A stretch of 64,000 nt of DNA, taken from assembly GCA_013821455.1 (NCBI GenBank), contig JACDGS010000003.1:62001-126000 (forward strand). The letters are read 5' to 3'. The notes beneath the pieces were generated by a model that did not search any database, was not told where the DNA came from, and was given only the letters and a program-made list of their open reading frames with translations. The DNA is from Chthoniobacterales bacterium. GTDB lineage: Bacteria; Verrucomicrobiota; Verrucomicrobiia; Chthoniobacterales; UBA10450. Shown one piece after another: positions 8,939-51,832 of this stretch. Both the position numbers and the translations under genes were made by a program. The first letter of the stretch is position 1, and every line of letters starts with the position of its first letter.

Positions 8939-10084
8939 GTGAACCCTTTCGCCGATCATCCCCTCACCCAGCTCCTGCGCGAGCGCATCGTCATTCTCGA
9001 CGGCGCCATGGGCACGATGGTGCAGCGCTATAAACTCACCGAGGAGGAATTTCGCGGCGAACGGTTCGCCAATCATCCGGCGAAGCACCTCAAGGGAAAT
9101 TTGGAGCTCCTCCAGCTGACCCGGCCGCAGCTCATCGAAGACATCCACACCCAATATCTCGAGGCCGGCGCCGACATGATCGAGACGAACACTTTCAGCG
9201 CCACCACCATCGGGCTGCAGGATTTTCTTTATCTCGGCGCGCCCGAAGGCGGCCGGAAAGACTCCGCATTTTTCCAGGGCGTGGTCGATGATCCGCAGCT
9301 CGTCGCTTTTGTGCAGGAGATGAACGTTGCCGCCGCGCAGCTCGCGCGTCGTGCGGCCGACCGCGTCGCCAACGAAACCGGCCAGGCGCGCTTCGTCGCC
9401 GGTTCGTTAGGCCCGCTGCCCGTGACGGCGTCGCTTTCGCCCGACGTGAACGACCCAAGCTTTCGCGCCGTAACCTTCGATCAACTTCGCAAGACCTACG
9501 GCGAACAAGTCCGCGCGCTGATCGACGGCGGCGTCGATGTGATTTTGGTGGAAACCATCTTTGACACGCTCAACGCCAAGGCCGCTATTTTTGCGATCGC
9601 GGAAGTCTTTGAGTCGTTAGGCAAAAACTTGCCGGTGCTAATTTCCGGCACGATTACCGACCTCTCCGGCCGCACTCTTACCGGACAAACCGTCGGCGCG
9701 TTTCTTACCTCCATCCTGCACGCAGACCCGCTCGTGGTCGGCTTCAACTGCGCGCTTGGTCCGGCGGAAATGCGGCCGCATGTCGAGGAATTGGCGCGGC
9801 TCGCCCCGTGCTTCACGAGTGCATACCCAAATGCCGGCCTGCCCGATCCGCTCTCGCCCACCGGCTTTCCCGAGACACCGGAAACGCTCGCGCCGCAGCT
9901 CGCCGATTGGGCGCGCAACGGCTGGCTCAACATCGTCGGCGGCTGTTGCGGCACCACGCCCGCGCACATCCGCGCGATCGCGGAAGCGGTGCGTGAGTTT
10001 GCGCCGCGCGTTCTGGGGAGCGCACGCGCCTCGCGTGCTGTTTCCGGCGCCTCGCCGGAAACCTCTGCGCTCGTGTCGGCCTGA
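8939..10084 (+). CDS. metH: Methionine synthase, homocysteine-binding module (split metH, part 1)
   Basis: A GTG start gives MNPFADHPLTQLLRERIVI, then the DGAMGTM loop of the homocysteine S-methyltransferase barrel. The NTFSAT and LVETIFDTLNAKAA strands and the zinc ligands are present: one Cys in GFNCALGP and the pair in GGCCGTTP. The family enzyme transfers methyl from methyl-cobalamin to homocysteine. In typical MetH this domain is the first ~350 residues of one ~1200-residue chain. Here a TGA at 10082-10084 ends it, and the remaining domains resume 3 bases later in the same frame. The last 20 residues ([17 protein letters not shown]) are encoded by a REP-like palindrome, not by normal metH sequence. 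Confidence 0.92.
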   Translation: MNPFADHPLTQLLRERIVILDGAMGTMVQRYKLTEEEFRGERFANHPAKHLKGNLELLQLTRPQLIEDIHTQYLEAGADMIETNTFSATTIGLQDFLYLGAPEGGRKDSAFFQGVVDDPQLVAFVQEMNVAAAQLARRAADRVANETGQARFVAGSLGPLPVTASLSPDVNDPSFRAVTFDQLRKTYGEQVRALIDGGVDVILVETIFDTLNAKAAIFAIAEVFESLGKNLPVLISGTITDLSGRTLTGQTVGAFLTSILHADPLVVGFNCALGPAEMRPHVEELARLAPCFTSAYPNAGLPDPLSPTGFPETPETLAPQLADWARNGWLNIVGGCCGTTPAHIRAIAEAVREFAPRVLGSARASRAVSGASPETSALVSA

Positions 10085-10087
10085 AGC

Positions 10088-13489
<3,402 letters not shown>

Positions 13490-13555
13490 CGAAAGCTCGC
13501 GTCGTTAGGTGTCCGTTAGGCGAATCGAATCGCGACGGCAGTGAGCAGTGTTTTC

Positions 13556-13700
13556 CGGGGAGCGCATGCGCCTCGCGTGCATCGTTAGGCGCCTCGCCTA
13601 ACGAACGAGCGTTCACTGACGTGCCATCATCTCTCTCCGCGCGAGGAGGTTTGCCGCGAGGCGCGGCAAACGGCACGCGAGGCGCGTGCGCTCCCCAAGC
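13556..13700. repeat. Inverted pair of REP-like palindromes downstream of metH
   Basis: The left unit (13556-13604) has the constant part GGGGAGCGCATGCGCCTCGC. Its hairpin arms are exactly the genome motif: TCGTTAGGC-gcctc-GCCTAACGA (13582-13604). The right unit (about 13640-13697) is inverted, with stem TTTGCCGC/GCGGCAAA. Additional single motif copies lie at 13502 and, as a variant, at 13513. The interval 13490-13717 has no gene. Confidence 0.85.
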
Positions 13701-50685: not shown

Positions 50686-51657
50686 TCAGCTTTTCAATTT
50701 TTCAGCTTTTTCCAATGGCGGTAATTTTTCCCGCCATTGAAAGATCAGCCAGGGCAGGCGGCGGGCGCTCCAAAAGCGCGGAATGAAGACCCGGGGTTGC
50801 GCGATAGAACGGAAGAGCCATCCGACGTAATATTTGTCCGCCCAATCGGGAATACGGACTTGGTCGCCGGTCAGGAATCCCAGGGCGGCGCCGATGCAAT
50901 GCACCGCGGGACGGTAATCGAGGCGATCGAGGATATAGCGGCCCAGCTTGTCCTGAATTCCCCCACCGACCGCGATGACGATGTGTCGCGGTCGCATTTG
51001 CCTAACGAGTGTAAGAAGCGCGCCGTCCTCGACTGGGCGTCCGTATTTCGGCGCGACATAAATCTCCGGGGAGCGCACGCGCCCTCGCGTGCCGGCAGAC
51101 GCGCCTCGCGGCTGCGGACTTTTCTCTTCATCGGTCGCTGCAGTTTCCGGTTTTTGGATTTCAGGAGAAAGCTCACGAGGCGGGACACCCTGAGAATTTT
51201 TCCGGTCTCCTTTTGTTGTCGGCGTTTCGGTCCCCGCAGCCTGAGGGGGAAGTTCGTGGACGCGAGGCGCGTCCACCAGCACGCGAGGGCGCGTGCGCTC
51301 CCCGGATAAGAACTCGTCGAGCCTGGCGCGCGAGGTTTCGGTCGCGACGACCCAAAGAACAGCGCCGGGTTCCCGCACGGATTCGTGTTCGAGCAAGCGC
51401 TTGACATGCTCCAGACCGGAGATGCGCGGCACCGTTTGGCCGGTAAAGAACTTCCAGAGCAGGACCATGAAACCGCTATCCGCGATCGCGAGGTCGGAGG
51501 AAAGAAGGGCGTTGCGGTAGTCTTCGTCGTGGCAAAGCGCGATCATGGAAGGGGCCGCGGGCGCGACGAGCAATCCCCCGCTGTGACTGATCTCTTCGAC
51601 GGCTTCCCGCGACGTTCCGCCGAAGAAATTGATACCAAGGATTTGGTGCGTGCGCAT
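50686..51657 (-). CDS. WecG/TagA/CpsF glycosyltransferase with in-frame REP insertion
   Basis: N-terminal GT26 features: MRTHQILGINFFGGTSREAV, APSMIALCHDEDYRNALL, AIADSGFMVLLWKFF. C-terminal ones: RHIVIAVGGGIQDKLGRYIL, IGAALGFLTGDQVRIPDWAD, FRSIAQPRVFIPRFWSAR. Residues about 118-198 are not GT26 sequence. They are encoded by an inverted pair of REP-like palindromes (51066-51305) and the DNA between them, and preserve frame. Bacterial GT26 enzymes transfer ManNAc(A) or similar to lipid-linked GlcNAc. Whether the 80-residue insert is tolerated is unknown; its position is a surface linker in typical ~250-residue members. Confidence 0.88.
   Translation of the reverse strand: MRTHQILGINFFGGTSREAVEEISHSGGLLVAPAAPSMIALCHDEDYRNALLSSDLAIADSGFMVLLWKFFTGQTVPRISGLEHVKRLLEHESVREPGAVLWVVATETSRARLDEFLSGERTRPRVLVDAPRVHELPPQAAGTETPTTKGDRKNSQGVPPRELSPEIQKPETAATDEEKSPQPRGASAGTRGRVRSPEIYVAPKYGRPVEDGALLTLVRQMRPRHIVIAVGGGIQDKLGRYILDRLDYRPAVHCIGAALGFLTGDQVRIPDWADKYYVGWLFRSIAQPRVFIPRFWSARRLPWLIFQWREKLPPLEKAEKLKS
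51066..51305. repeat. Inverted REP-like pair inside the WecG-like gene
   Basis: Left unit (51066-51115): GGGGAGCGCACGCGCCCTCG and CGTGCCGGCAGACGCGCCTC. Right unit (51255-51305) is the inverted form, GGACGCGAGGCGCGTCC and GCACGCGAGGGCGCGTGCGC, ending in TCCCC. The constant part has one extra C/G relative to copies in metH. The ~140 bp between them codes in frame for Pro/Glu/Lys-rich residues. Confidence 0.85.
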
Positions 51658-51832
51658 AAAAGACGGACAGGATTAACAGGATTTAGAGGATTGCGGAAGA
51701 GAGAGCGAGAATTGGGGCCACGTCTAGCCTCGGTCGGAGCGTGCGCTGTCTCCGCACAGCGCGGCGGCGTTCTCTGTGCGTTGTAGAAACTAACCAACGA
51801 ATCTGGAAACCAGGAACCCTGGAAATGCTCTA

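Follow-up and report, generated by a model that had tools for sequence, protein, structure and literature searches.

REPINs, REP-associated tyrosine transposases (RAYTs), and intragenic REPs, including those of one verrucomicrobium, are already known (PMC3116915, PMC3733652, PMC6006769). The systems described by Bertels and Rainey in 2011 (PMC3116915) and under the name TnpA_REP (PMC8266576) consist of abundant palindromes, arranged in inverted pairs and accompanied by a matching single-copy HUH/Tyr transposase that is flanked by the same units, and all these traits recur in the DNA presented here, together with a GTAG at the hairpin foot in one of its unit families. The same sources indicate that the loop base and the pairing of the hairpin matter to some TnpA_REP proteins, and that compensatory changes occur in REPIN spacers. 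The present system differs from these in that each unit has two hairpins, the second with free arms and with a loop that agrees with that of the first, and in that the RAYT lies in frame within housekeeping genes, whereas the known ones lie between genes. The open-access literature yielded no report of an in-frame RAYT in alaS, recG, metH, thrS, or carB, and no earlier report of an embedded RAYT, of a free-arm second hairpin, or of loop agreement.

The window, i.e., the whole stretch of 64,000 nucleotides analyzed here, belongs to a genome of 4.30 Mb in 117 contigs (Verrucomicrobiota, Chthoniobacterales-like). Each of its units is built from a foot, a near-fixed head hairpin (H1), and a further hairpin (H2) with variable paired arms, in the order TCY, GGGGAG or GGGTAG, H1, and H2. 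The original prediction spoke of at least eight units with a shared sequence in the window, and all eight are present. Six differ from GGGGAGCGCACGCGCCTCGCGTGC at one position at most (10015+, 10171−, 11974+, 12551−, 13557+, and 13696−; chance expectation 0), the 13557+ unit with a single mismatch, while those at 51068+ and 51303− have an H1 loop with one extra C. They form four inverted pairs: 10012–10062 (+; TCT, GGGGAG, H1, and H2, with arms GTTTCCGGCG) with 10124–10174 (−; arms TTCGCGGCG), 11971–12021 (+; arms GTTTTCGGCG) with 12504–12554 (−; H2 imperfect), 13554–13604 (+; H2 stem TCGTTAGGC/GCCTAACGA) with 13649–13699 (−; arms GTTTGCCGCG), and 51068–51116 (+) with 51255–51303 (−). The four pairs had been predicted and are real, as are the five hairpin arms quoted with them, although 10123, 12501, 13640, and 51255, given as positions of the partners, are the far ends of minus-strand units. 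Likewise, the hairpin described with a loop GCCTC exists, but its unpaired part is CCT, within GCG-CCT-CGC, and the statement that the H2 arms always pair fails at the 12551 unit, with A/G mismatches, and at the 51068 unit, with one A·G mismatch.

Beyond the window, a genome-wide pattern search allowing up to three mismatches gave 113 matches, against 0 for the reversed control, and a covariance model counted at least 147 units, a lower bound obtained from 150 scored candidates. Many units lie no more than about 130 bp from contig ends (e.g., C14:45, C33:33, C82:35, and C115:28), so the assembly often broke at the units and their copy number is underestimated. The units fall into family A, GGGGAGCGCACGCG-CCT-CGCGTGC, and family B, GGGTAGCGCATGCG-TCT-CGCGTGC; the foot of the latter, GGGTAGC, contains GTAG, and the former has GGAG. 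Family A units are preceded by TCC or TCT in 68 of 89 cases, with conservation ending farther out, and CTTT is favored at their positions 50–53. The stretches of DNA examined around units held 47 inverted pairs, spaced by 112–236 bp with the exception of two, of 578 and 617 bp, each of which encloses a RAYT. The inverted arrangement, together with a resident RAYT that has the same units at its two ends, upholds the earlier reading of these pairs as REPINs. Regarding their shape, the predicted DNA fold of 13642–13699 (−) and of some other units joins the foot GGGGAG to a CTCC-like stretch after H2, giving a three-way junction; by analogy with IS608, this might be a guide/cleavage-site pairing.

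The two hairpins vary in different ways. H1 is nearly invariant within the source genome, while H2, compared over 74 distinct units, has two-sided changes at nine of its ten pairs, amounting to 192 two-sided cells as against 55 ± 5 in shuffles, and the signal is lost when the partner is slid. This genome-wide tabulation of the arms had been named beforehand as the check, a lack of covariation in a larger set being the result that would have spoken against the prediction, and covariation in the larger set is strong. Across the phylum, 147 distinct units from 79 RAYT loci covary at five of seven H1 pairs and at all ten H2 pairs, with 97.8% of cells paired against a comparison value of 72.9%, a difference that leans toward the model to which the alignment was fitted. 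Moreover, H1 and H2 share their first loop base in 96.6% of these 147 units, which are related and not independent, against 39% after shuffling, and this agreement means that one protein probably reads both hairpins. In Stenotrophomonas maltophilia, selection on a degenerate REP loop scored the first base (G13) high, and replacement of the loop strongly cut cleavage (PMC8266576). The RAYT would thus recognize the sequence of the foot and of H1 but only the loop base and the pairing of H2, so that the H2 arms would need only to pair and would otherwise be free to drift.

The original prediction also held that variation preserving the pairing implies selection on the structure. The pairing is indeed kept, but template switching between the arms, a process in which one arm is copied onto the other at replication and both sides change in one step, would likewise give two-sided changes that lack intermediates. 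Among the fully paired H2 types, 17 pairs of types stand one base pair apart, eight of them without a G-T route, and the intermediate type is absent; double changes may therefore arise in one step, which leaves selection alone unproven. Quasi-palindrome correction of this kind is an established process, for instance in yeast (PMC3820800), and we put the chance that mutation of this sort keeps H2 paired at a little short of even. Template switching alone, however, explains neither the agreement between the H1 and H2 loops nor a near-fixed H1 beside a drifting H2 within one genome, and the mismatch found in about a quarter of the H2 types of the source genome indicates that correction is not immediate. 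It seems to us quite improbable, by comparison, that H1 and H2 work as RNA, with selection on the transcript keeping a terminator, an mRNA stabilizer, or a ribosome-binding feature paired. REPs elsewhere are frequently transcribed and located after genes (PMC3733652), but many of the present units are translated within reading frames, G-U pairs, usual in RNA helices, are rare here (7 of 665 cells), and a terminator midway through metH, recG, or alaS would do harm.

Three of the four window pairs interrupt genes. The REPIN at 10012–10174 occupies the linker that joins the first module of methionine synthase (metH), Hcy, to the second, the pterin module, and since the stop of the ORF at 8939–10084 (+) and the start of that at 10088–13489 (+) fall between its units, the first module (homocysteine S-methyltransferase) forms a separate frame. 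The remaining metH, with the pterin, B12, and activation domains, is a continuous frame of 1133 aa that crosses REP, RAYT, and REP and continues with the remaining part of the enzyme: the pair at 11971–12554 (matches 11974/12551) brackets the transposase between the B12 and activation domains, its left end being translated as 16 residues. A metH search of the source genome found no second copy. The REPIN at 13554–13699 comes after the metH stop, and that at 51 kb is inserted in frame in a WecG/TagA-type glycosyltransferase gene (50689–51672, −). Other in-frame REPINs of the source genome occur in uvrA, hrpB, dnaE2 (twice), and a GH63-like gene. Such in-frame REPINs and RAYT elements depart from the extragenic location by which REPs are recognized; intragenic REPs are known, so this location is compatible with membership. 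The unit consensus is free of stops in all six frames and encodes flexible linkers, which allows insertions in protein loops and interdomain linkers to be read through. As a special adaptation, this openness is a weak candidate, because REPINs have 4.1 open frames out of six, compared with 2.4 in controls of the same length, but at a G+C of 0.69.

The RAYT domain itself (12035–12508, +; HxH at residues 62 and 64, Tyr at 132) passes the NCBIfam model NF047646 narrowly, with 80.7 bits for a cut-off of 80, and also matches PF01797. Its predicted structure (mean pLDDT 90) has as best fold match the E. coli RAYT 4er8 (TM 0.64/0.61, E 2.8e-6), and a comparison with the PDB by sequence gave nothing at E 0.01. 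The AlphaFold model of the whole 1133-aa fusion shows the RAYT with confidence between low-confidence linkers and is poor elsewhere save in parts of the N-terminal half, its mean pLDDT of 55 making it uninformative on domain packing. Among RAYT sequences, the HxH (HUH) motif is kept in 42 of 43 and the catalytic Tyr in all 43, and purifying selection is evident from a dN/dS of 0.06–0.12, similar to that of the hosts (Nei–Gojobori, with dS partly saturated). Such low values may be due in part to selection against folds that harm the host protein, and not to selection for transposase activity. In the source genome, the metH RAYT is flanked by A units and the recG RAYT by B units.

Regarding translation, the RAYT of the window could have a start of its own, a GTG at 12035 preceded by GGGAG, but this was rejected as a general rule: 32 of 39 alaS copies and seven of eight metH1 copies lack a start codon in the 22 codons preceding the RAYT core, and the host frame continues past the RAYT. 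Many recG and thrS copies have a possible internal start codon, and separate translation of the RAYT is possible there. Embedded copies would otherwise use the promoter and the start codon of the host.

Such embedding is not confined to metH or to this genome. The source genome also has in-frame RAYTs in recG and in carB, the latter belonging to another subclass. Among 97 distinct RAYT domains, 91 are in frame in alaS (40, and two more at a second site), recG (31), metH (nine and four, at two sites), or thrS (five), and the other six stand alone without a recognized host; the search reached RAYTs close to two query sequences, and this fraction holds for that clade and not for RAYTs at large. 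A close RAYT was present in seven of 289 genomes sampled phylum-wide, so that gene embedding is common in the family and not universal. The carB RAYTs form a sister subclass, present at this location in about 20 genomes of the family, and members of this subclass also occur in sua5 (L251) and mqnA (L237), with both hosts confirmed by Pfam. Nearly all these data come from metagenome-assembled genomes (MAGs).

The same loops or linkers are hit each time, and translated REPs stand on both sides of the insert (in one example, 17 residues before and RRDAEESTRDACAPQ after). The RAYT tree requires 16 changes of host site, as against 48.6 when shuffled, with recG involved at least five times, so that a site is passed on by inheritance in the short term and occupied anew in the long term. 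Further arrangements were noted at single loci. A Pedosphaera MAG (L118) has an alaS frame of 1540 aa with two RAYTs at two sites and further REP units, all in frame. At L094, the frame before the RAYT is PriA-like by eye (LNAEQRAVFEEVKRTIE), possibly a further host gene, and the contig ends soon after. In the source genome, a more distant RAYT (L038, C65:115527–115865) follows hisC with no stop codon between them, and no REP unit was seen there.

The second metH site exists in several states. It is empty at L208 and L216, filled by a B or hybrid REPIN at L200 and L202, which are from the same genus, and by an A REPIN at L204, and at L203 it holds a RAYT with an in-frame internal deletion and both REPs left. 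This last locus seems to capture the moment at which a REPIN arises from its parent element; an in-frame internal deletion of a RAYT element would leave a REPIN behind. The first metH site contains, at L207, L209, L213, and L225, unrelated palindromic elements, also in frame and read, for example, as VIPSEVEESR...PLRSAQDD; the metH linker seems to be a general landing place.

We consider it highly probable that the units are the double-hairpin ends of an IS200/IS605-like REP and RAYT system whose transposase has settled in frame in housekeeping genes. Two inverted units would constitute a REPIN, mobilized by the resident RAYT, and the RAYT gene would settle as an in-frame internal domain of a housekeeping enzyme, where its imprecise deletion would damage the host gene and the RAYT would be protected from loss. 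With somewhat less assurance, we lean toward a wider reading, namely that the RAYTs of Verrucomicrobiota lead an intein-like life without splicing in enzymes that are essential or housekeeping (alaS, thrS, sua5, recG, metH, carB, and mqnA), that they are made mostly within the host protein, presumably with both the enzyme and the RAYT working in the fusion, and that they are still active and the source of the REPINs of the genome, with double-hairpin ends read by one protein via the shared loop base.

Embedded RAYTs might instead have been domesticated, lending the host enzyme a useful binding of single-stranded DNA or RNA and no longer moving. The strong purifying selection on the RAYT, the same sites in many genera, and production mostly as part of a fusion all agree with domestication. 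We regard it as unlikely, nonetheless, because in close relatives the same sites are empty or filled by a REPIN, the hosts have no function in common, different RAYT lineages occupy the same site (the recG label changes at least five times), and REPINs matching the resident RAYTs are abundant. It is hardly credible that the fusions are assembly artifacts or pseudogenes: most of the data are MAGs, and contigs often end in REP units, but both halves of the host align in the same frame and at the same site in dozens of independent assemblies, and dN/dS is low in RAYT and host alike.

The unit at 13554–13604 introduces another repeat of this genome, since its H2 stem (13582–13604) is the 9-mer TCGTTAGGC, through which the original prediction linked the REP family to a dispersed motif. 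That link does not hold as a general rule: the motif is the arm in one of 74 distinct units, where it differs by one base pair from CGTTCGG, the common H2 type (nine inner pairs compared), and it has 4,605 exact copies of its own in the genome (2299 and 2306 by strand, about one per 934 bp). Its reversed control has 62 copies in the 4.30 Mb, and neighboring words are rare. Copies also lie within genes; the window has 57 (e.g., at 13412, 13582, and 55484), and a perfect inverted pair of the motif (GTTCGTTAGGCCCTAACGAAC) is found at 12118–12138, within the RAYT coding sequence. Four other searched genomes of the same genus contain 1,410 to 2,754 copies; among the remaining genera of the family, seven have 95 to 417 and one has 2,147, and outside the family the counts are near or below background. 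The link with the REPs is incidental, and TCGTTAGGC is a separate, uptake-sequence-like feature: it has about one copy per kilobase on both strands, coding DNA included, as expected of a DNA uptake sequence, and would be such a sequence in Verrucomicrobiota. A ComEC homologue is present.

These observations bear on several questions. RAYTs are usually low in copy number and persist for very long, and their in-frame welding into housekeeping genes may be the reason, which makes this persistence testable. The arrangement also offers a mobile gene a nonsplicing way to live within conserved proteins, and many synthetases and helicases of the group carry a transposase domain as a result. In addition, the free-arm H2 is a natural experiment on whether a single-strand transposase depends on loop and pairing or on sequence for recognition.

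Among known systems, intragenic GTAG/CGTC REPs, including those of Opitutus terrae from the same phylum (Di Nocera 2013, PMC3733652), resemble the present ones in forming in-frame REP dimers in genes of DNA repair and of other functions, among them uvrA, dnaE2, and tRNA synthetases, whereas a RAYT gene within genes and a conserved free-arm second hairpin, both seen here, are not reported in the available part of that paper; the "double palindromic TIRs" of tyrosine transposases that it mentions may be related to the double-hairpin ends. Rickettsia palindromic elements are likewise mobile palindromes translated in frame within proteins but, unlike the present elements, are not known to bring a transposase into the host genes. 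The TnpA_Y1 subclass 2.4 (Quentin 2018, PMC6006769) has REPs inserted in frame in a coding sequence, in a loop that tolerates the insert; there, the REPs sit in the transposase gene, and here, the transposase sits in other genes. Pfam scans of the metH, recG, alaS, thrS, carB, and sua5 fusions gave no self-splicing (Hint) domain, and identification as inteins was rejected. Like an intein, the mobile gene keeps to fixed positions in conserved housekeeping genes, in frame, and re-occupies them; the difference is that the insert here appears to remain in the protein.
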